From Anaerolineales bacterium UBA3940 (GTDB taxonomy: Bacteria; Chloroflexota; Anaerolineae; Aggregatilineales; UBA3940), in assembly GCA_002385675.1 (NCBI GenBank), contig DGDY01000137.1, positions 4,186 to 18,872 of the forward strand: 14,687 bases of DNA. The letters are read 5' to 3'. Below the pieces are notes generated by a model. It was not told the origin of the DNA and searched no databases. It saw only the letters and a program-made list of their open reading frames with translations. Positions within the stretch are counted from its first letter, which is position 1, and every line of letters begins with the position of its first letter. Shown piece by piece: positions 4,285 through 14,308 of this stretch. Position numbers and translations under genes: made by a program.

Positions 4285-5637
4285 CTACTCAATATAACCG
4301 AGATCCTGCAGGCGCTGTTCGATGAGCGCGAGTTCTTCCGGCGTGTATTCCTGCCCCTCCTCAGGCGGCTCGTCGCTGTAGCCGGCGGTCATCTCCTGGA
4401 AGCGCGCCCGCATCTCTGCCGCCACTTGCGGCAGCCGGTCGATCACATTGTGTTCCTCAGCCGGGTCGGCCTCAAGATCGTACAGCTCTTCCGGCAGCTC
4501 CGGGTTATACAGCCCGCGAGCATATTTGTAGCGCCACGTGCGGATGCCCCCTAGCCAGTACTCGGGGCCTGCCCGCGAGCGCTCGTGCATGCCGATCAGC
4601 GCCTCCAGGTACAGCGCCCGGTCGCCGAGATCGCTGATCTCGCCACGCACCAGCGGCATCAGGTCGATGCCGTTCAGCGTGGCGGGCGCACCCTCCAGCC
4701 CCAGTGCGGACAGGAGCGTCGGCAGCACGTCTACATGGCTGACCAGCTCATCGATCTTGTGCCCCTCAGGGAAAAGCCCCGGCCCGTACATGAGTAGTGG
4801 CACATGCGTAAGATAATCATACACATGATACCCGTGTCCTAACCACCCGAAGTGGAAATCCTTGTTGTTGGAGCTTAACCGCTCCATCCCCTTCACGGCG
4901 GCGGGCGTAAAGCGCCGCAGCCTGCGCGCGCCGGGGATGTGCTCCTTGATCCACTTCCAGGGCCCCTTAAGGCGGGCGATGATCTCGCCGCTCTGCGACG
5001 CCGAGACGTACTCGCCATGGTCGCCGGTCAGCACGACGATCGTGTTCTCAGGCAGCGCCTCGAACAGCCGCGCAAGCTGCGCATCCAGCGAGGACACCGC
5101 CCGGTCGTACAGGGTTTCGCCTGCCGAGCGGTGGTCGTAGCCCGGCGTGACCCGGCGCGGGTTGTGCAGTTCCCACAGGTGTAGCAGCCCGAACCACGGG
5201 GCGGGGAAGTCCGCGCCGTCCCGCAGGCGGCGGATGAACCCGTCGCCCCATTCGGTGTCGAGCCAGTGGTCATAGGGGCGGTACTCGTAGCGATCGAAGC
5301 CCCGGTCCAGCCCGCGCATCGCCTCCAGCGGGCCGGTCATCTCGGCCCAGGTATGGTAGCCGCCCGCCTTGAGCAGTTCCGGCAGCGTCGGCAGGTCCGT
5401 GCGGAGGCGGTTGCTGAGCAGCGAGTGGATGCCGTGCACGAACGGGTAGCACCCGGTCAGCAGGCTGGTCGTGCAGACAGTGGTGATGGACGCGGTTGAG
5501 AAGGCCCGGGTGAAGACGGTTGACCGCTTCACCAGGCCGTCGAGGAACGGCGTGCGCGCGCTGCGGCGACTGCCCCAGGTGCGGTCTGCACGCATGGCGT
5601 CTACCATCAGCAGCAGGATATTCGGTTGGGTTACCAT
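4285..5637 (-). CDS. Sulfatase-family (alkaline phosphatase superfamily) protein with Thr instead of the formylglycine Cys/Ser
   Basis: A 450-residue protein with the sulfatase (PF00884) fold. Metal-ligand regions are visible: VDAMRAD (D13, R16), ELHNP (H158), TGDHGEY (D206, H207) and the GHGYHVYDYLTHVPLL block. The segment leading into SLLTGCYPFVHGI (58-70) aligns to the sulfatase signature but reads T52-T-V-C-T rather than C/S-x-P-S-R. Formylglycine formation there is therefore not expected, and Thr52 is the predicted nucleophile, as in phospho- and phosphonate-handling relatives. It may hydrolyse or transfer phosphoryl-type groups instead of sulfate esters. No signal peptide is visible at the chosen start. 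That start is the ATG at 5637 with GAGG (5643-5646) 5 bases upstream. A TTG at 5700 would overlap the preceding ligase gene and is disfavoured. It lies 46 bases after the ATP-grasp gene, probably in the same transcript. Confidence 0.85.
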   Translation of the reverse strand: MVTQPNILLLMVDAMRADRTWGSRRSARTPFLDGLVKRSTVFTRAFSTASITTVCTTSLLTGCYPFVHGIHSLLSNRLRTDLPTLPELLKAGGYHTWAEMTGPLEAMRGLDRGFDRYEYRPYDHWLDTEWGDGFIRRLRDGADFPAPWFGLLHLWELHNPRRVTPGYDHRSAGETLYDRAVSSLDAQLARLFEALPENTIVVLTGDHGEYVSASQSGEIIARLKGPWKWIKEHIPGARRLRRFTPAAVKGMERLSSNNKDFHFGWLGHGYHVYDYLTHVPLLMYGPGLFPEGHKIDELVSHVDVLPTLLSALGLEGAPATLNGIDLMPLVRGEISDLGDRALYLEALIGMHERSRAGPEYWLGGIRTWRYKYARGLYNPELPEELYDLEADPAEEHNVIDRLPQVAAEMRARFQEMTAGYSDEPPEEGQEYTPEELALIEQRLQDLGYIE

Positions 5638-5683
5638 AGTCGCCTCAGAGTCAACTAACGCACACGTGTCCGAACCAGTACCA

Positions 5684-6964
5684 TCACATACTGCCGCCAA
5701 GCTGCGGTGTCACGGACGAGGCGTCGGCATCCGAACGGGCACGCTTGCCGCCCCTCCTCACGAAGAGCCCGGCGCTCCGCCACAGATCGGCGAGGAAGGG
5801 CACCGGATCGCTCCAACTGAAGATAGCGTAAGCCTTGCGCCCGCGCACCGATCGCCACCAGTCTCGCAGGGTTAGCTCCCCGCGCCGCCAGTAGTGCAGC
5901 GCCGACTGGAAGTCGCGCCGCAGGTAGATCCACTTCACGCCGGTGTACTGCTGCACGTACGGGCCGGGCAGCGGCAGCCCTGCCGCGTCGCAGTACATCG
6001 TGTACACAAGCTCGACGCCACCCGCCTCGGCAATCGCCGAGCGCCCCGTCGGCCTGCCGATGTTCGGCTCGATGATGTAGTGCTTGCCGGTGCGCTCGTC
6101 GCGCTTCATCTCGACGTAGCCCAGCCCCTGGTAGTTCACGCTCTTGAACAGCCGGATGGTTTCCTCGAGCACCACGTCGTTGCGGACCTCCTCGCCGAGG
6201 CAGCTTGTGCCTGTCTCCGGCGGCCACTGCCGCAGCTTCCGCGCGACGAACGTCACGAGCGGCTCGGATTGGGCGTTGAAGTAGACGTTGCAGGAGTACA
6301 GGTCGGAGTCCTTGCCCTCGACCCACTCCTGCACCATCAGCACGTCTGCCCAGTTTGAGCAGCGGTCGTACACCGCGAGGAACTCCTCGCGGCTCATCGC
6401 CCTGTAGACCTTCTCTTTGCTGTTGGCCTCCCAGCCCGGCGTTTTCATCGGCGGCTTGAGGATGCACGGGTAGTTGAGCGCATCTGCCGCCGCCTCGGCG
6501 TCCTGCCGGTTGTACAGCAGGAACATCTTCGGCACGGGCAGGCCGTGCTCCTGCGCGTACGTGCAGAAGCGCACCTTGTCCATCAGCATCTCGATGGTGT
6601 CGTGCTCCGGCAGCGACATGTGATACCACTCGTGCAGCCGGTCCCGGTAGCGCGAGATCGTCAGCACGCTCATGTCGCTGCACGGCACGAGCACCGCCTT
6701 CTGCGGCAGCGTCGGCCCGAGCGCCTCCAGCGTTTCGATCAGCGCCTCGCTGCCGGTGTGCGCCTCAAGGATCTGCTGGCAGACCCGCGTTTTCGCGCAG
6801 TAGTGCGTGCGGTCGTTGGCAATGCCGATCACCGGGACGCCATGGCGCGCCAGGATGCGGGCGGTTTGCAGGCCGGTCATGTTATCCAGCGCGACGACGA
6901 TGGCAGGGGGCAGCCCCACCCCGTCGCCGCGCTGGTCCCGGCTGAGCCGGTTAGATGATGCCAT
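5684..6964 (-). CDS. ATP-grasp family carboxylate-amine (or related) ligase
   Basis: A 426-residue predicted ATP-dependent ligase. The N-terminal pre-ATP-grasp part (about 20-120) starts with a Rossmann-like VVALDNMTGLQTARIL. The ATP-grasp core (about 125-325) shows MDK (K130), CILKPP (K170), QEWVEG (E213, adenine/ribose region), YVEMKRD (E285), and the metal-binding IIEPNIGR (E299, N301). A C-terminal extension of about 90 basic and aromatic residues follows. Such enzymes activate a carboxylate as acyl-phosphate and join it to an amine or other nucleophile; the substrates here cannot be read from sequence. It resembles the loose group of 'carboxylate-amine ligases' found in polysaccharide and secondary-metabolite clusters. 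Only 4 bases separate it from the PEP mutase stop, and its AGGTG ribosome-binding site (6972-6976) lies within that gene's last codons. Translational coupling and a shared pathway are therefore likely. Confidence 0.85.
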   Translation of the reverse strand: MASSNRLSRDQRGDGVGLPPAIVVALDNMTGLQTARILARHGVPVIGIANDRTHYCAKTRVCQQILEAHTGSEALIETLEALGPTLPQKAVLVPCSDMSVLTISRYRDRLHEWYHMSLPEHDTIEMLMDKVRFCTYAQEHGLPVPKMFLLYNRQDAEAAADALNYPCILKPPMKTPGWEANSKEKVYRAMSREEFLAVYDRCSNWADVLMVQEWVEGKDSDLYSCNVYFNAQSEPLVTFVARKLRQWPPETGTSCLGEEVRNDVVLEETIRLFKSVNYQGLGYVEMKRDERTGKHYIIEPNIGRPTGRSAIAEAGGVELVYTMYCDAAGLPLPGPYVQQYTGVKWIYLRRDFQSALHYWRRGELTLRDWWRSVRGRKAYAIFSWSDPVPFLADLWRSAGLFVRRGGKRARSDADASSVTPQLGGSM

Positions 6965-6968
6965 AGGG

Positions 6969-7871
6969 TTACACCTGTTCTGCTGCCGCCGTCGAGGTGC
7001 GGGTGGGCAGGTAGCGTTTCTCCGCCTGCTTGAGCTCGTCCGCGCCCTGCAGCCGGAAGATCTCCTTGACCGGCACCACCTTGCCCTCGACGTTCACCAG
7101 CGAGCGATCCTCGAAGATCTGCCGCGCGGTCTGCTGCATGGCCGTGATGGCGGAGCGCATCATGTGGTTGGCCCAGATGACGAGGCTCACGCCCAGCTCC
7201 TCAAACACCGAGGTCGGGGTGTTGTAGTACATCGTGGGCACGATGACCACCGGCGCGGCGTTGTCCCACTCCCGCATGAAGGCGGCGATCTCGTCAACCG
7301 TGTTGATCTTGCTGTGGATCAGGACGGCGTCCGCGCCCGCCTCGGCGTAGGCATGCGCGCGGCGCAGCGCCTCATCCAGCCCCCAGCCTGCGATGAACGC
7401 CTCGACCCGCGCCACCAGGCAGAAGTCCGGGTCCTGCTGGGTGTCCTTGGCCGCCTTGATCTTGCCGACGAACTCCTCCACGTCCGCCAGCGGCTGGCTC
7501 TCGCCGTTGATGAACGAGTTGGTCTTGGGGAACAGCTTGTCCTCGATGCAGGCCCCGGCGATCCCGCGCTGCTCCAGCTTCTTGACCAGCCGGCGCACGT
7601 TGTTGAAGTTGCCGTAGCCCGTATCGGCGTCGAGCAGGATGGGGATGCTGGTGATGTCGCTCATGAACTCGACGACCTCCAGCACCTGCGTCCAGCTTGC
7701 CTCATTGTTGTCGCGCACGCCCATCGCTGCCGAGATCGCAAGCCCGCTGCCCCAGATCCCCTTGAAGCCGGCCTCCTCGACGATCTTGGCGCTGATGCCG
7801 TTGTGCGCCTCCAGAATGAACTCCGTCTGGTCAGACTGGAGCATCTGTTTAAGCTGCGTTGTCTTCTTCAT
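6969..7871 (-). CDS. aepX: Phosphoenolpyruvate mutase (phosphonate biosynthesis)
   Basis: Rearranges phosphoenolpyruvate to 3-phosphonopyruvate, forming the C-P bond that opens almost all phosphonate pathways. The 300-residue length is normal for a stand-alone mutase. The diagnostic EDKx5NS motif is intact (E110, D111, K112 to N118, S119). Recalled residues of the mussel enzyme all have counterparts with a constant offset of 4: D54, D81, D83 and E110 around Mg, K116, N118, S119, R155 and H186. Asn118 argues against phosphonopyruvate hydrolase, which has Thr there. There is no fused nucleotidyltransferase or decarboxylase domain. The start is the ATG at 7871, with AGGAG (7881-7885) 9 bases upstream; a GTG at 7898 is weaker. 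It lies 51 bases downstream of the hydroxyacid dehydrogenase gene and 4 bases upstream of the ATP-grasp gene. The reaction equilibrium favours PEP, so a pulling enzyme is needed. Confidence 0.95.
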
Positions 7872-7922
7872 CGGTCGTGGCTCCTGTGTTAGGCCCACCC
7901 CCGCACGGATGGCGGGGCAGGG

Positions 7923-8876
7923 TTACTTCGCCTGTGCGGTGGCAGCGGCTTCGGCCTGCCGCGCCACGAAAGATTCAACAGTCTCAACAATAATGTTGCC
8001 GATCTGAATCTGCGTATCGAACGTGCCTGCGCCGATGTGCGGCGTTAGCACAACGTTCGGCAGTTCCGCCAGCGGGGAGATCTTCCCCTCGCCCTCGTTC
8101 TCGTGGACGTCCAGGCCCGCCCCGGCGAGGCGGCCCTCCGTCAGCGCGCGGTACAGCGCCTGCTCGTCCACTACGCCGCCGCGCGCCAGGTTGACGAGGA
8201 ACGCCGTCGGCTTCATCAGCGACAGGGCGCGCTCGTCCACGAGGTAGCGGGTGCTTTCCTTGAGCGGCACGTGGATGCTGACGAAGTCGGCGCTGCGGAA
8301 GACCTCATCGCAGTCCACCATCCGGATGCCGTGTGCGGCCAGCCGCTCGGCCTGCTGCTCGGAGGGGTGCTCCACGCAGCCAATGACCTCCATGCCCCAG
8401 GCGTGGCCCATCTGCCCAACGACGGTGCCGATATTGCCCGCGCCAACGACGCCCAGCACCTTACCCTGCAGCAGATGGCCGGTCATCTCGTGCTTGGCCC
8501 AGCGCCCCTTGCGGAGCAGGTTGTCGGCGATCAGCACCTTGCGCGCCAGCGTGAGCATCAGCGTAAAGGCCAGTTCGGCAACCGCCCGTGCGCCCGGCCC
8601 GGGGATGCGCACGAACTCGTAGCCCTGCTGCTTGACGAAGGGCACGTCGATGTTGTCCATGCCGGAGCCTGCCCGGATGATCAGCTTGAGGTTGGGGGCG
8701 GCCCGCATAACGTCGGCGGTAATCTGCACGCCGCTGCGAAATACCAGCGCGTCGCAGTCGACGATGAGCCGGGCAAGCTCGTCCGTCGGCGCGCCGAAGG
8801 CGCACACAACCTCGTGAGACTCGCTCAGCCGGTCAATAGCACTTTGATGAATCGAGCTTGCAACCAGGATCTTCAT
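7923..8876 (-). CDS. D-isomer-specific 2-hydroxyacid dehydrogenase (candidate phosphonopyruvate reductase)
   Basis: A 317-residue NAD(P)-dependent dehydrogenase of the D-3-phosphoglycerate/D-lactate dehydrogenase family. The cofactor-binding GAGNIG (145-150) lies in the Rossmann insert. An acidic residue (E169) follows the second beta strand, which fits NAD(H) preference. The catalytic Arg-Glu-His set is present: R232 (LARGGVVD), E261 and H280 (LTPHIGA). The C-terminal ACT domain of some SerA proteins is absent. The usual Glu-Pro after the catalytic Glu is Glu-Gly here (E261-G262), a small departure that may affect the active-site loop. General family members oxidise 3-phosphoglycerate or reduce 2-ketoacids. 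Next to a PEP mutase, an attractive substrate is 3-phosphonopyruvate, giving phosphonolactate (inference). The ribosome-binding site is weak (a GGAA-like stretch). It could instead serve serine or another hydroxyacid supply. Confidence 0.88.
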   Translation of the reverse strand: MKILVASSIHQSAIDRLSESHEVVCAFGAPTDELARLIVDCDALVFRSGVQITADVMRAAPNLKLIIRAGSGMDNIDVPFVKQQGYEFVRIPGPGARAVAELAFTLMLTLARKVLIADNLLRKGRWAKHEMTGHLLQGKVLGVVGAGNIGTVVGQMGHAWGMEVIGCVEHPSEQQAERLAAHGIRMVDCDEVFRSADFVSIHVPLKESTRYLVDERALSLMKPTAFLVNLARGGVVDEQALYRALTEGRLAGAGLDVHENEGEGKISPLAELPNVVLTPHIGAGTFDTQIQIGNIIVETVESFVARQAEAAATAQAK

Positions 8877-8933: not shown

Positions 8934-9917
8934 TCAGGCTGCCTGGGGCAGCGCGCGCAGCCCATTGAGGCGCGCAGTGTAGAGCAGCAGCCGGGCACGG
9001 AGCGTCCCGACCGTCGCATCCTCCTTTACATTGATACGCCGCAGCCGCAGCGGGTCGAGCCGGGCCAGATCGTTCGTTCCCTTGATCGTGGTGAAGGCCA
9101 GCCGAAAGCCCGCTTCTTTCAGTATGGCGACCACCTCAGCGTTGTACGCGCCCGCCGGGTACGCAAAGACGGGCATCACCTCCCCGATCTCGCGCCTCAG
9201 GTCCTCCAGCGAGCCGACAACCTCACGACGCGCCACATCGAGGGGCACGCGAGTGAGCAGCGGATGGGTACGGGTGTGCGCACCGAGCGTCACACCCTCG
9301 GCGGCAAGCTGCCGCAGTTCGTCCCAGCCGAGCACATCGCAGGGGGGCGTGCCGTCGTGCAGCGCCCCGGCAATCTGCTCGACAAAGGCCATCCCCTCAT
9401 CGTGCGGCAGGCTCTTGACGTAGGAAGTCAGCCGCTTGAACGCCTGCCCGCGCTCGCCCGGCGTCGCCAGCGGCAGCGGCCCGAACGGCGTGTCGAGCGG
9501 CGTCCGGCGCGTGGTGTGGGCCAGCGCATAGCTGAGCCGGTCCCACCAGAACGCCGGGAGCGCCCCGCCGGGGTAGCCGGTCGGCACGAACAGCGTCACG
9601 GGGATGCCGTAGCGCTTCAGGGCGGGCCAGGCCACCTGCGCGAAGTCGGTGTAGGCGTCGTCGAAGGTGACCATCACGGCGCGCGGCGGCAGTTCTCGCC
9701 TGCCCTCCAGCGCGTCGACCAGCTCCTGCATCGACACGGGGCAGGTGTGCTCGGCCAGGTAGCGCATCTGCGCCTCAAAGCTCTCCGGGCTACCCGCACG
9801 GTGGTAGGTGAGGACGCGCACCCGGTTCGGGCGCCGGTCGTCCACACGCTCCAGCGCGCCCAGCAGCCCCTGCCCGACGCCGCTCGACACCAGCCGGCTC
9901 ACAATCCCCTTGATCAA
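8934..9917 (-). CDS. Polysaccharide deacetylase (NodB domain, carbohydrate esterase family 4)
   Basis: A 327-residue protein predicted to remove N- or O-acetyl groups from a polysaccharide. NodB motifs appear in order: TFDDAY (84-89; D86 catalytic base, D87 metal), HTRTH (214-218; H214 and H218 metal ligands) and FAYPAGAYN (251-259). No clear signal peptide or anchor is seen, although the first 20 residues are mildly hydrophobic and basic, so it may act at the cytoplasmic side or associate with the membrane. The start is TTG at 9917: it has AAAGGGG (9926-9932) 8 bases upstream and leaves a 15-base gap to the preceding kinase-like gene. An in-frame GTG five codons in is the alternative. In this operon it would tailor the glycan made by the two glycosyltransferases (inference). 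Confidence 0.9.
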   Translation of the reverse strand: MIKGIVSRLVSSGVGQGLLGALERVDDRRPNRVRVLTYHRAGSPESFEAQMRYLAEHTCPVSMQELVDALEGRRELPPRAVMVTFDDAYTDFAQVAWPALKRYGIPVTLFVPTGYPGGALPAFWWDRLSYALAHTTRRTPLDTPFGPLPLATPGERGQAFKRLTSYVKSLPHDEGMAFVEQIAGALHDGTPPCDVLGWDELRQLAAEGVTLGAHTRTHPLLTRVPLDVARREVVGSLEDLRREIGEVMPVFAYPAGAYNAEVVAILKEAGFRLAFTTIKGTNDLARLDPLRLRRINVKEDATVGTLRARLLLYTARLNGLRALPQAA

Positions 9918-9932: not shown

Positions 9933-10697
9933 CTACGTGTCCTGCTGCCCGGTCTGCGTCACGGAGGGCGCAACGGGCCGGGCGAGGATGCGTTCGTCTT
10001 TCACGCCCGCCGCAAAGCGGGAGATGATCTCCGCCACCTCGCGGGCGGCGTCCTCCTGCGGCTGCTCCGTGCTGACAATGGCGAAGTGGTCGATGTGATG
10101 GCGCATCTCCAGGTAGTCCTGGCGGCGCTGCTCCAGCGACTCGATGGTGCCCTCGCGCTTGCGGGCGTGCAGCACCTCCGCCGGCGCGTCAAGCATGATC
10201 ATCATGTCGGGCCGGGGGTACAGGTTTTTCAGGATCCACCCGTGCACCTTGCTCGTGAAGGGCCGGTCCGGGTCGCCGTCGGCGATGTCGCTGGCGTAAT
10301 AGTCCGGGAAGAAGTGACGGTCAAAGACGACCACGTACCCTCGAAGCTGGTAGATCCACGCGACAATCTGCCGGAACCACTCCTCGGCTATCCAGTTCAT
10401 CAGCCGGAAGACGGCCCTGAACTGGTAGATCAGGCCGCGCACGCCGCGCATGGAGCGCCGCTTGGCGCGGGCCGCCGTCGGGCTGATAGCGTCAGGGCGA
10501 TCGCCCCGCATCCGCTTCAATTCCAGCGCGAGCCGGGTCGTCGGCAGCATCAGGTTGCTTGCTTCCAGGTTGACGCCCATATACAGGTACTTTGCCGGGA
10601 TGTCGAGCATCTCAACCACTTTGCGGCTAATCGTCGACTTGCCCGCGCCATCCGGACCGATAAGGGCTACGGTAAATACTCCTCGATGCGGTTTCAC
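9933..10697 (-). CDS. Thymidylate-kinase-like P-loop NTPase
   Basis: A 254-residue cytoplasmic P-loop protein. Walker A is GPDGAGKST (14-22). A DRH segment (126-128, in VVVFDRHFFPDYYASD) corresponds to the DR motif of nucleoside monophosphate kinases. RPDMMIMLDAPAEVLHARK (162-180) is the usual strand and helix before the lid. It is longer than standard thymidylate kinase (about 210) because of an insert around residues 55-110, so housekeeping dTMP kinase activity is doubtful. A dedicated kinase for a sugar, nucleotide or pathway intermediate is more likely (inference). The start is GTG at 10697, with GAGG (10703-10706) 5 bases upstream, overlapping the stop codon of the HprK-like gene and suggesting coupling. 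A TTG at 10790 would overlap that gene by 86 bases and is disfavoured. Confidence 0.78.
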   Translation of the reverse strand: MKPHRGVFTVALIGPDGAGKSTISRKVVEMLDIPAKYLYMGVNLEASNLMLPTTRLALELKRMRGDRPDAISPTAARAKRRSMRGVRGLIYQFRAVFRLMNWIAEEWFRQIVAWIYQLRGYVVVFDRHFFPDYYASDIADGDPDRPFTSKVHGWILKNLYPRPDMMIMLDAPAEVLHARKREGTIESLEQRRQDYLEMRHHIDHFAIVSTEQPQEDAAREVAEIISRFAAGVKDERILARPVAPSVTQTGQQDT

Positions 10698-10704
10698 TCG
10701 TACC

Positions 10705-11820
10705 TCACAGAACAGGATAGATGATGTCAAAGAGTGCTGGGATGGAAACCGGGTGTGGATGCGCGAGACGGTACGTCTTCTTGCCGCCAAGCGCCTGCCT
10801 GAGCGTCTCCAGTTCGAGCGCCTGAAGACGCTCGATGAGCGGGTTGGGACGGTCAGGGAAGGCGAAGCGGAACTTCCAGTAATGCGTCAGGAGGTCGAAG
10901 TACTCGACCTTCGACGAGAACACCATGCGTTCGGCAATCTCGTCAGCATCCATTGGCTCCAGCCCGGTCCTGGCCGAGTCATGGCTGACCATGAAAATAA
11001 ACAGATCGGGTCTGCCGGTCGGCTGGCAGGCGTCCGCGCCGAACAGCTTCGCGGGCGGGATTTGCACATTGAGCTGCCGCTTCAACGCGGCGGCAAAGCG
11101 GGTCATGCTGCCGATCGGCAGGGCGCGCCGTGCCAGCCTGTTCGAGGCAAGCCGGTCCAGCCCGCTCGCTGTCGCGCCGATCAGCCGCAGCTTGCGGCGG
11201 TCGCCCGCACTGACCGCCCGCTTGTAGCGCGGCATCTGGTCAAGCTGCCATGTCCACAGCCGGATTGGCTCGGGGATGCCGAACATCTTCTCCCCGTCGC
11301 AACTCAGGTAGATCCACTCGTCGCCGACATACGTTGCGCCACGCGCCATGAACGAGAGCAGCGCCTCGGTCTTGCCTGCCTTCGCCCAGCCGGTGACGAC
11401 GATGCCCTTCCCTTCGTACGTGAATGCCGACGCATGCAGCGGCACAACGCCCTTGCTCAGCGCCGTCATGTTGACGATGGCGATCAGCAGCGGCACGGCG
11501 GGCAGCCCGCGCTCAACGACAATGTCGCACCCCTCGCCGATGCGATCCATCGGAATCTGCACCCGCGCCGACGCCTTGTGCTTGCTGCGCAGCACCAGGT
11601 AGGCGTCGTCCGTGTAGGCGGCGTCGTCCAGCCCGATGTAGCGCACGGGCGAGGCCGTCTCCAGTCGGTCCACGAAGCGGATGGTGATATCCGGCCTTCC
11701 GTCAACGTCCGTCTGGATCGGCCCGAGCTGCCGCGTGATGACGGCGGCATCTGCGGGTGTGGCGTCAAGCAAGCGGACGCGAACGACGCCGTGAAGGTCG
11801 TAGTCGATCGTCGATGTCAT
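10705..11820 (-). CDS. HprK-like P-loop kinase domain protein
   Basis: A 371-residue protein whose middle resembles the C-terminal catalytic domain of HPr serine kinase/phosphorylase. VPLHASAF (126-133, H129) is followed by strand-loop GIVVTGWAKAGKTEALLSF with Walker A GWAKAGKT (144-151), then RGATYVGDEWIYL (160-172), in which D167-E168 stands where HPrK has an Asp pair. True HPrK has Gly-Asp-Ser-Gly-x-Gly-Lys-Ser in the loop, so this is a divergent relative. The first 120 residues are unassigned and do not look like the HPrK N-domain, and about 190 residues follow the P-loop region. Such proteins recur in polysaccharide and peptide-modification clusters; the substrate is unknown. The start ATG at 11820 has only a weak ribosome-binding site. 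It is followed after 7 bases by the TMPK-like kinase gene, so the two probably work together. Confidence 0.7.
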   Translation of the reverse strand: MTSTIDYDLHGVVRVRLLDATPADAAVITRQLGPIQTDVDGRPDITIRFVDRLETASPVRYIGLDDAAYTDDAYLVLRSKHKASARVQIPMDRIGEGCDIVVERGLPAVPLLIAIVNMTALSKGVVPLHASAFTYEGKGIVVTGWAKAGKTEALLSFMARGATYVGDEWIYLSCDGEKMFGIPEPIRLWTWQLDQMPRYKRAVSAGDRRKLRLIGATASGLDRLASNRLARRALPIGSMTRFAAALKRQLNVQIPPAKLFGADACQPTGRPDLFIFMVSHDSARTGLEPMDADEIAERMVFSSKVEYFDLLTHYWKFRFAFPDRPNPLIERLQALELETLRQALGGKKTYRLAHPHPVSIPALFDIIYPVL

Positions 11821-11858: not shown

Positions 11859-13061
11859 TCAGATCGTCCTGTCGGTTGGCATGGCAGGCGTGCCGGGCGT
11901 CTCGGCGGCAGGCAGCGACCGCTCGGTATCCCACCGCTCGATGCGCCGCCCCCGCACGATGTTCGCGGCGGCGACGAGACAGGCCGCGTTAACCATGCAG
12001 AAGTAGTAAGGGATGGCGAGCGGCTTCTTCTGGCCGAGGCGCGTGTTCTCCAGCAGCGCGCCGAGCGCCGCCAGCCCGTAGAAGGCAAGCTGCCCCAGCA
12101 GCGCCAGCCGGTACAGCCAGCCTTTGGCCCACAGCAACGGGCTCAGCACGAACACCACGATCAGCGGGAGGACGACCAGCCGCCGCAGCACTTTGTGAGA
12201 CAGAAGCTGCAGCGAGTAGAAGCCATGCTGGAACGGGTTGAGCAGTTCGCGCCGGGAGAGCACCGCCTGCAGGCCACGCGTCGTGATGCGCACCTTGCGG
12301 TTGAACTCCTTGCCAGTCTCCCCGGCGACGGCTTCATAGGCGATGGCGTCGGCGCTGAACACCAGCCGCCGATGCTGCGCAATCACCCCGGTCGAGATGT
12401 AGAAGTCGTCCGTCACGCCGCCGATGACCGGCTGGTACAGCTCGCGCCGGATGGCGTAGATCGCGCCCGTCGCCGAGGTGACGTTACCTGCCCGGCTCTG
12501 GAACTCCTTAAGCAACCGGTCGAAGTTCCAGTACGTCTTCTCACCGTCGCCGCCCGTGCCGCGCTCAGGGTCGAGGTAGACCTGGTTGCCCGCCACGCCG
12601 CCCACGGACGGGTCGGCGAAGGGCCGGACGATCTCGCGGATGGCCTGCGGCGCGTACATGCTGTTCGCGTCGGAGAAGACCAGGATGTCGCCGGTGGCGG
12701 CCTTTACCGCTGCGTCGAGCGCGGGGGCCTTGCCTTGACGCGGCAGCGCCAGCAGCGTGACCCTCTCGCCCACATACCTCTGCACGATCTCGTTCGTGCC
12801 GTCCGTCGAGCCGTCCGACGCGATGACCACGTTCAGGCAGTCCGCCGGGTAGTCGAGCGACAGCACATTCTGTAGCTTGGCCTCGATCACATCCGCCTCG
12901 TTGTGGGCGGCGATGATCAGCGTGACGCTCGGCGTGATGTCCCCCGTCTGGTAGGGGCGGCGCATCAGCACGCCGCGCAGCAGCGTGAGCGCCGGGAAGC
13001 CTGCGTAGGAGTAGGCAATCAGCAGGACGGCCAGCCAGAAAAGGATCTCCAGGACGTTCAT
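11859..13061 (-). CDS. Membrane glycosyltransferase, family 2
   Basis: A 400-residue processive-type or membrane-bound GT2. An N-terminal membrane segment (about 3-28) precedes the GT-A catalytic domain: IIAAHNEADVIEAKL (49-63), VIASDGSTDGT (79-89, D83), GKAPALDAAV (110-119), and the metal-binding D131-A-N within VFSDANS. SATGAIYAIRR (196-206), the acceptor-side TDDF (217-220, D218/D219) and RITTRGLQ (258-265) follow, then about three C-terminal membrane segments (about 294-312, 316-337, 350-369). The layout matches hyaluronan- and cellulose-synthase-like GT2 enzymes, which build glycans from nucleotide sugars at the inner membrane face; the sugar is unknown. The start is ATG at 13061, sharing ATGA with the GT4 stop, with GGGGG (13069-13073) 7 bases upstream. 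The frame extends upstream to 13244, but only through GT4 antiphase sequence. Confidence 0.92.
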   Translation of the reverse strand: MNVLEILFWLAVLLIAYSYAGFPALTLLRGVLMRRPYQTGDITPSVTLIIAAHNEADVIEAKLQNVLSLDYPADCLNVVIASDGSTDGTNEIVQRYVGERVTLLALPRQGKAPALDAAVKAATGDILVFSDANSMYAPQAIREIVRPFADPSVGGVAGNQVYLDPERGTGGDGEKTYWNFDRLLKEFQSRAGNVTSATGAIYAIRRELYQPVIGGVTDDFYISTGVIAQHRRLVFSADAIAYEAVAGETGKEFNRKVRITTRGLQAVLSRRELLNPFQHGFYSLQLLSHKVLRRLVVLPLIVVFVLSPLLWAKGWLYRLALLGQLAFYGLAALGALLENTRLGQKKPLAIPYYFCMVNAACLVAAANIVRGRRIERWDTERSLPAAETPGTPAMPTDRTI

Positions 13062-14308
13062 GCAGGTACCCCCGTGCTGAATCGGGCCACCAGTCGAGAA
13101 GCGTTTGTCATCAGGTCGAAATCCTCCAGCACCCGCGCGCGGCCCGCTTCGCCCAGCCGCCGCCGCAGCGCCGGGTCCGCCGCCAGCCGCTCGATGGCAT
13201 CGGCGATGGCCTCGGAATCGCCGGGCGGCACGAGCAGGCCACACTCGCCATCGTGCACAAGCTCGGGGATGCCGGAGAGGCGGCTCGCGACGACCGGGAC
13301 CCCGCTTGCCATCGCCTCCATCAGCACCACCGGGATGCCCTCACGACGGCCATCGCTCGACGGCACGCTCGGCGCGACGAACACATCCGCCTGCTGCAGC
13401 ATCTCGATGATCTCCGCGCGCACACGCTGCCCGTGGAAGCACACGCGGTCCTCAAGCCCCGCTTCCCGCGCCTGCGCCTCAAGCATCTCGCGGTCCGGCC
13501 CATCGCCGATGATGTGGCACATCAGGTCCACCCCGCGCTCGTGGAGCAGGCGGCAGGCTTCGATCAGGTACTTCTGCCCTTTGACCTCGTGGATGGTGCC
13601 GATGTTGACGATGTTGAGCGGGCGGCGGGTGGTGTCGTCGCCGTTGGACGAGGCGGGCCGGAAGGCCTGCGTATCAATGCCGCAGTGGATGAGCACGAGC
13701 TTGTCGGCATCCTGCTGGCGGCACACCCCGCGAATGATCTCAGCGTTGTACGCCGAGATGGGCACAACGAACGCCGCCTCCTCGACCTTCTCGCGCAGCA
13801 TGGTCTGGTCGCGGTGCAGGTCGGAGCCGTGCGCCGTGAAGCTGTACGGGATGCCCGTCAGCAGGTGGATCACATAGGCGGCGGCTGCCGGGTGGCTGGC
13901 AAAGTGGGCGTGGATATGCGTCACGCCGGTTGCAGCCATCTTCTCGGCGAAATACACGGACTTGGGGAAGATGCCGAGCGCCCCCATAAAGAAGCGCATG
14001 CTCCCCCACGTGCCCTTGAACAGACGCCATGCCGCGCGCAGATAGCGGCGCGGGTGGCGCACCAGCATACGCAGGTTGGCGCGGATGATCGGCCAGGAGA
14101 TGAACGGCGTGAAGTTCGCCCGCTCCATCCACGGCCTGGCTTCGGGGTGCATTACGTCGGTGCGCTCCCGCAGGAGCGGGTAGAGGTCTACCTGCACGCC
14201 CAGCCGTTCGACGGCGGCCATCTCGAAGAGGATGAACGTTTCCGTGATCTTCGGGAAACGAGACATCATGTAGGCGACCCGGGGCCGATTGCTCACGTCC
14301 ATTGTCAT
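13058..14308 (-). CDS. Glycosyltransferase, family 4 (GT-B)
   Basis: A 416-residue retaining GT-B enzyme. The N-terminal acceptor domain begins RVAYMMSRFPKITETFI (10-26), with HIHAHFASHPAA (131-142) and FTAHGSDLH (157-165). The C-terminal nucleotide-sugar domain carries VNIGTIHEVKGQKYLIEA (234-251), IIGDGPDREML (266-276), FHGQ (291-294), and the diagnostic E-x7-E in EGIPVVLMEAMASG (E323, E331). It is expected to act in the cytoplasm, adding a sugar from a nucleotide donor to a lipid-linked or growing glycan; donor and acceptor cannot be deduced. The start ATG at 14308 has GGAG (14314-14317) 5 bases upstream. An in-frame ATG two codons later is the only close alternative. It overlaps the GT2 start by 4 bases (ATGA), which implies coupled translation. 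Confidence 0.93.
   Translation of the reverse strand: MTMDVSNRPRVAYMMSRFPKITETFILFEMAAVERLGVQVDLYPLLRERTDVMHPEARPWMERANFTPFISWPIIRANLRMLVRHPRRYLRAAWRLFKGTWGSMRFFMGALGIFPKSVYFAEKMAATGVTHIHAHFASHPAAAAYVIHLLTGIPYSFTAHGSDLHRDQTMLREKVEEAAFVVPISAYNAEIIRGVCRQQDADKLVLIHCGIDTQAFRPASSNGDDTTRRPLNIVNIGTIHEVKGQKYLIEACRLLHERGVDLMCHIIGDGPDREMLEAQAREAGLEDRVCFHGQRVRAEIIEMLQQADVFVAPSVPSSDGRREGIPVVLMEAMASGVPVVASRLSGIPELVHDGECGLLVPPGDSEAIADAIERLAADPALRRRLGEAGRARVLEDFDLMTNASRLVARFSTGVPA

Follow-up and report, generated by a model that had tools for sequence, protein, structure and literature searches.

A candidate phosphonolactate branch: PEP mutase paired with a D-2-hydroxyacid dehydrogenase and an ATP-grasp ligase in bacterial polysaccharide gene clusters

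Introduction

Surveys commonly route PEP mutase (PepM) to phosphonoacetaldehyde, and from there to aminoethyl-, hydroxyethyl- or methylphosphonate. The presence of phosphonate genes amid glycosylation genes is already known from the available portions of PMC8931226 and PMC9381506, and the former, in the portion available, uses the motif EDK(X)5NS as its criterion for a PepM. A reductive branch is also known, since the reduction of phosphonopyruvate to phosphonolactate is already in print. The available part of the Flavophos preprint (PMC12871164) has a 2-hydroxyacid dehydrogenase converting phosphonopyruvate to phosphonolactate, with reference to Zhang 2022 and one more source, and that of PMC11867202 has VlpB employed as PnPy reductase. 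The valinophos pathway of Streptomyces durhamensis, as far as the available text of PMC12723261 and the sources above describes it, runs from PepM to a 2-hydroxyacid dehydrogenase giving phosphonolactate and includes the ATP-grasp ligase VlpF.

The window analyzed in this study, a stretch of 14,687 nucleotides, carries the same three kinds of gene. Valinophos is, however, the product of a small-molecule pathway in an actinomycete, whereas the window cassette lies among glycosyltransferase and polysaccharide genes and its relatives occur in unrelated phyla. The likeness drawn here between VlpB and the cassette dehydrogenase (DH) is one of described function. In the literature searched, which left most subscription papers outside its scope, no description of the cassette, its hosts or its polysaccharide setting was found, and the cassette, this setting and a second PepM-like lineage described below look new. 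We propose that the cassette DH probably reduces phosphonopyruvate to phosphonolactate.

Results and discussion

Gene content of the window

The window holds 12 genes, 11 on the minus strand and one, a phosphoglucomutase fragment, on the plus strand (Table 1). The DH stop codon is separated from the PepM ATG by 51 bases, PepM from the ATP-grasp gene by 4 bases, and the end of the deacetylase gene from DH by 57 bases. The unit had been limited to 6969..8876 in an earlier sequence-only reading, which is too narrow, as it omits the ATP-grasp gene although this gene is linked to PepM about as tightly as DH is.

Table 1 Features of the window and of related loci (positions without a locus name refer to the window)
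Feature	Position	Strand	Basis and remarks
D-2-hydroxyacid dehydrogenase (DH), candidate phosphonopyruvate reductase, core gene 1	7923..8876	-	Pfam 2-Hacid_dh and 2-Hacid_dh_C; cassette clade 100/100; R90, G95, H258, G262
PEP mutase PepM, core gene 2, ATG start	6969..7871	-	TIGR02320, 402.9 bits; gapless against 1m1b; motif [10 protein letters not shown]
ATP-grasp ligase, core gene 3	5684..6964	-	PepM linkage; P0230 fusion; predicted ATP-grasp fold; E299/P300/N301
Polysaccharide deacetylase, accessory	8934..9917	-	PF01522; homologues close to the core in L002, L005, L015, L109, L110 and L125
Thymidylate-kinase-like (TMK) P-loop protein, accessory	9933..10697	-	Weak PF02223 match; alignment; likely start GTG 10697 by position, ORF to 10790
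HprK-like kinase, accessory	10705..11820	-	Sub-threshold HprK matches; structural model closest in fold to PEP carboxykinase and HprK
Family 2 glycosyltransferase, setting	11859..13061	-	PF00535; start chosen by the analyst, ORF to 13244
Group 1 / family 4 type glycosyltransferase, setting	13058..14308	-	PF00534
'Sulfatase'	4285-5700	-	PF01663 phosphodiesterase match
Metallophosphoesterase with DNRLRE/CBM96 domain	888-2576	-
EDN-type gene	L110:8813-9706	-
EDN-type gene	L109:10660-11565	+
EDN-type gene	L123:2009-2896	+
EDN-type gene	L125:10098-10970	+
Large CBM96 protein, 986 aa	L109:3905-6862	+
Large CBM96 protein, 1218 aa	L109:6999-10652	+

The PEP mutase of the window

Against the PEP mutase family model TIGR02320 the window PepM clears the cut-off of 319.55 bits, and its 252.4 bits against the phosphonopyruvate hydrolase model TIGR02321 (cut-off 374.4 bits) rule out an identity as a PalA-type phosphonopyruvate hydrolase. 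It aligns without gaps and at a constant offset of 4 with the Mytilus PEP mutase 1m1b over residues 1-290. Residues D54, D81, D83, E110, K116, N118, S119 and R155 do not vary in an alignment that extends to two diverged homologues; they correspond to D58, D85, D87, E114, K120, N122, S123 and R159 of 1m1b, which we take to be its catalytic residues. Together with the EDK(X)5NS motif, these results bear out the earlier description of an intact PEP mutase with its catalytic residues at constant offset, and suggest that the window PepM turns PEP into phosphonopyruvate. An ATG at 7871, with AGGAG within 20 bases upstream, is a more likely start of PepM than the GTG at 7898. With this start the gap to the DH stop is 51 bases, as had been stated, and the DH upstream is complete, with both 2-Hacid_dh domains and the catalytic R232, E261 and H280 expected of the D-2-hydroxyacid dehydrogenase fold.

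Conservation of the cassette across genomes

The sequence-only reading had suggested comparing the gene pair across genomes, and the pair proved to be conserved in several phyla. A PepM scan of genome contigs gave 80 loci, the best 80 of 541 PepM relatives, and DH (55-66% identity) adjoins PepM in 9 of them. The ligase lies beside or near PepM in eight of these nine loci; the contig of the ninth, L024, stops some 180 bases past PepM. Another locus, L073, contains PepM, the ATP-grasp gene and the TMK gene, and no cassette-type DH in its 8975-base contig. The best DH-family match in that genome groups with paralogues in the DH tree. An internal stretch bearing conserved residues is missing from the ATP-grasp protein of L073, and the locus may therefore be decaying.

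These seed loci come from Chloroflexota (L002, L003, L005, L006 and L073), Planctomycetota (L015 and L024), Ignavibacterium (L009), Pelobacter (L060) and an unclassified bacterium (L004), and polysaccharide-type clusters with the cassette of DH, PepM and ATP-grasp ligase occur repeatedly across Chloroflexota, Planctomycetota, Ignavibacteriota and Thermodesulfobacteriota. The gene order is HprK-like, TMK, deacetylase, DH, PepM and ligase in the window, DH, PepM, HprK-like, TMK and ligase in L004 and L009, and ligase, DH and PepM in L060. What stays constant is the placement of DH immediately ahead of PepM, both on one strand, in 13 of the 14 DH-bearing loci (the window, nine seed loci and four found later). 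DH and PepM-family genes overlap in L006, L024 and L110, where the locus coordinates exclude the stop codon. In a PepM tree built by a quick method and including 40 of the 70 other loci, the cassette PepMs did not form one supported clade.

The pair was also recovered from the DH side. The DH profile A2, built from 12 DHs (nine cassette DHs and three database matches), was searched against 298 genomes at E 1e-95 and against 294, 296, 297, 126 and 7 genomes at E 1e-90, these sets overlapping. It matched 10 different genomes, and in all 10 the DH contig also contains a PepM-family gene. Six of the ten were known via PepM and are therefore not independent evidence; G268, G405, G1545 and G1551 were new, G268 having first been met through a ligase profile that matched 2 of 301 genomes. 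The pairing of DH with PepM is not accidental. The contigs of the listed DH and ligase homologues share 11 sizes, against about 0.8 expected under a simple model, a circumstantial figure.

The gene caller used for the loci picks antisense ORFs where G+C content is high, and its gene table was used only via BLAST labels. Among mobile elements, 116 plasmid records matched PepM (best 69.6% identity) and 667 matched DH, all below 60% identity and at most 44.7% among the 10 listed. Three viral contigs came up as pattern matches for relatives, none of which was confirmed.

Distribution of phosphonopyruvate decarboxylase

As the sequence-only reading had noted, no decarboxylase, phosphonomethylmalate synthase or aminotransferase is encoded in the window: annotation with Pfam (12 of 12 genes) and NCBIfam (10 of 12) returned no ThDP enzyme, homocitrate-synthase-like enzyme or aminotransferase. 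The aminoethylphosphonate-type clusters that combine PepM with phosphonopyruvate decarboxylase (Ppd) resemble the cassette loci in their homologous PepM and, often, in lying within surface-polymer clusters (PMC8931226 and PMC9381506, available portions), but differ in the decarboxylase. With one Ppd, that of L010, as the probe, a homologue was present in 55 of the 70 other loci and in none of the 10 cassette-like loci (all among the best 80 of 541 PepM relatives; Fisher p = 2e-6), although some loci of both groups end close to PepM, so that the absence of Ppd from a locus is not always informative. In 52 of the 55 loci Ppd lies at most 100 bases from the PepM frame.

A decarboxylase co-conserved with the mutase, which the earlier reading had named as evidence that would count against it, was looked for in the 10 genomes with cassette-like loci, and none reached the 312.5-bit cut-off of TIGR03297; exactly one PepM above cut-off was found in each. 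The comparison set consisted of 15 genomes that we picked from the 70 other PepM genomes (best 80 of 541): 12 have a TIGR03297 match above cut-off, two more have a split enzyme, and one has weak matches only (Fisher p = 1e-4 for genomes). Many of the genomes are draft MAGs, which weakens the absence in each. The decarboxylase of the two Nitrospirales genomes, those of L014 and L025, is apparently split into two adjacent pieces that score 129-172 bits per half, below the cut-off; single-model cut-offs thus miss such enzymes.

An ordinary pathway, in which phosphonopyruvate made by PepM goes to a decarboxylase encoded at some unlinked site in the genome, is very improbable. The split Nitrospirales enzyme illustrates how a cut-off alone can miss a decarboxylase, and the search was confined to the 10 genomes with related loci. 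The weak TIGR03297 matches present in 8 of these 10 genomes, however, reach 36 bits at best, against 129-172 bits for the Nitrospirales halves, and the three best lie in open frames of 587-681 aa, which in our reading resemble acetolactate-synthase-type enzymes.

A separate clade of dehydrogenases

The nearest family models and PDB relatives of the cassette DH by sequence are phosphoglycerate dehydrogenases. DH shares with SerA the fold family, the catalytic Arg/Glu/His and the residues R47 and R68, but it scores 276.6 bits against the SerA model TIGR01327, below the cut-off of 454 bits; the model is 525 long and DH lacks the C-terminal part. In a tree of 42 sequences built by a careful method, the 14 cassette DHs and 10 database matches came together in a single group (100/100) whose stem measures 1.43 changes per site, and the 18 paralogues from cassette genomes fell outside it. 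The tree program warned that long branches meet at this split between cassette DHs and paralogues.

The residues of the two groups differ accordingly in 134 cassette-type sequences (the 14 from the loci and window plus the 120 best database matches) compared with the 18 paralogues. R90 is present in all 134 and replaced by N in 17 of the 18 paralogues; G95, H258 and G262 are likewise invariant, with N in 13, F or Y in 17 and P in all 18 of the paralogues, respectively. Two further positions, V168 (131 of 134) and E169 (128 of 134), correspond to D and P in most paralogues, whereas R232, E261 and H280 are kept in all sequences compared. We take the loops bearing these signature residues to face the substrate and cofactor, after the structures of phosphoglycerate dehydrogenases. 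With R90 as a further arginine besides R47 and R68, DH would be suited to a substrate in which phosphorus lies one atom nearer than in phosphohydroxypyruvate. R90, G95, H258 and G262, at which SerA differs from the cassette DH, provide a sequence signature for candidate reductive-branch dehydrogenases.

A separate, full-length SerA above cut-off is present in 9 of the 14 cassette genomes, where serine synthesis has no need of the cassette DH. This and the tree make serine synthesis unlikely as the role of DH; the other 5 genomes, with no SerA above cut-off, give no such argument. More broadly, DH might use another 2-keto or 2-hydroxy acid, such as 3-phosphohydroxypyruvate or a glycerate-type glycan block, and merely share the operon while another enzyme takes phosphonopyruvate. 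We consider this unlikely, even though the nearest models and structures are phosphoglycerate dehydrogenases, five cassette genomes have no SerA above cut-off, and L073 retains PepM and the ligase without the cassette DH. The clade stands apart on its long stem, all 10 genomes in which the profile found it also have a PepM-family gene within that contig, its loop residues are unlike those of all or nearly all of the 18 paralogues, and the gene directly precedes PepM in all but one of the DH-bearing loci. The conserved linkage, the lack of a decarboxylase above cut-off in the related genomes and the separate clade are among the reasons why the cassette DH reads as a probable phosphonopyruvate reductase.

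The ATP-grasp ligase

With TM-scores of about 0.5-0.6 by query length, the best Foldseek matches to the structural model of the third core protein (pLDDT 83.8) are ATP-grasp enzymes, which supports a predicted ATP-grasp fold; biotin carboxylase, PurK and the L-amino acid ligase RizA are among the enzymes matched. Database relatives of the ligase bear the automatic names carboxylate--amine ligase, D-aspartate ligase and ATP-grasp carboligase. One of the 120 relatives listed, P0230, is a natural fusion of PepM (motif [10 protein letters not shown]) with the ligase, indicating that the ligase belongs with PepM. Residues E299, P300 and N301 are nearly invariant and are missing in L073.

The fusion, together with the occurrence of PepM and the ligase without the cassette DH in L073, would also fit a scheme in which the ligase consumes phosphonopyruvate, or its product, directly and so provides the pulling step, with DH coming in afterwards, either on the product of ligation or on a side substrate. 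The equilibrium could be driven by ATP hydrolysis as well, as would be expected from established chemistry. Such a scheme is nevertheless improbable, somewhat more so than another substrate for DH, because DH adjoins PepM even where the ligase does not (in L004 and L009 two genes lie between PepM and the ligase) and because the L073 ligase, without its internal conserved stretch, may belong to a decaying locus.

Proposed pathway and its implications

In the preferred reading, in which DH is the phosphonopyruvate reductase, the operon would produce a phosphonate for a surface polysaccharide. PepM, judging from its family membership and residues, would isomerise PEP to phosphonopyruvate, and DH with NAD(P)H would reduce phosphonopyruvate to phosphonolactate (2-hydroxy-3-phosphonopropanoate). 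This reduction would pull the unfavourable mutase equilibrium and so replace the decarboxylase. The ATP-grasp ligase may then activate the carboxylate of phosphonolactate for attachment to a glycan, or to a precursor of one, at an amine or hydroxyl group. Since phosphonolactate carries a free carboxylate, the ligase would most simply serve to couple it to an amine or alcohol; this coupling, with the polymer as the acceptor, is the weakest step of the proposal. The deacetylase could free an amine on the glycan as the acceptor for phosphonolactate.

The sequence-only reading had held that DH pulls the mutase by making phosphonolactate. This is partly supported and is the most likely of the readings considered. 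In its favor are the distribution of Ppd in related genomes, the separate DH clade and the conserved pair; against it stands L073, which has no cassette-type DH, and the reduction itself is one that we infer. The further proposal that the cassette builds a phosphonolactyl decoration, as an amide or ester, on extracellular polysaccharides in four phyla, with an EDN-type second mutase lineage in part of Chloroflexota that phosphonate mining has overlooked, is tentative, and we regard it as a possibility rather than the expected outcome. If the preferred reading is right, a rare but phylogenetically wide set of bacteria makes a surface phosphonate of another, carboxylated kind, with consequences for where environmental phosphonates originate and for what their breakdown releases.

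An EDN-type PepM-like lineage in the same operon slot

The PepM-family genes of G268, G405, G1545 and G1551 encode proteins that are 36-39% identical to the window PepM and have EDNLFPKRNS in place of EDK..NS. Two that were tested score 249 and 257.5 bits against TIGR02320, below its cut-off, and are not filed as PEP mutases. In the alignment, the EDN-type proteins nevertheless keep the presumed catalytic positions of PepM, and they are a candidate second mutase lineage. Their relatives comprise 1100 database proteins at E <=1e-60, with EDN..NS in 120 of the 120 listed, and the EDN group is set apart in the PepM tree (quick method; 40 of the 70 other loci included). The PalA-type phosphonopyruvate hydrolase belongs to the superfamily common to PepM and the EDN-type proteins, but its representative 2dua has T-S where the EDN-type proteins have N-S.

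The layout of G268 closely resembles that of the window: an O-antigen-ligase/Wzy-type protein, two glycosyltransferases, GalE, a chain-length/tyrosine-kinase protein and a deacetylase are followed by the ligase, the EDN-type gene, DH, TMK, the HprK-like gene and a flippase-type protein. Some 6.8 kb separate DH from the EDN-type gene in G405, an interval that contains two large CBM96 proteins; this contig also carries the ligase, farther along. An EDN profile searched against the 126-genome set matched strongly in three genomes, precisely those with DH; being relatives, they do not represent three independent events. One weaker match, in G1560, is an EDK-type PepM that is 67% identical to the window PepM; its 3.8-kb locus contains no DH and no Ppd. 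An EDK(X)5NS filter, as in the available portion of PMC8931226, would drop the PepM-like EDN lineage.

Accessory and neighboring genes

The predicted structure of the HprK-like protein is nearest in fold to ATP-dependent PEP carboxykinase and also resembles HPr kinase. We do not claim the HprK-like and TMK-like proteins as phosphonate kinases, for which the sole basis is a sub-threshold FomB match (E 0.0072). The 'sulfatase' of the window has TTVCTTSLLTG at the position of the type I sulfatase motif, where, aligned by eye, a Thr presumably occupies the place of the formylglycine Cys. Its target may be phospho- or phosphonate esters rather than sulfate. A comparable homologue was not seen in the other cassette loci. 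A DNRLRE/CBM96 domain occurs near the window cassette on the metallophosphoesterase, and in L109 such domains are carried by the two large proteins whose genes separate DH from the EDN-type gene.
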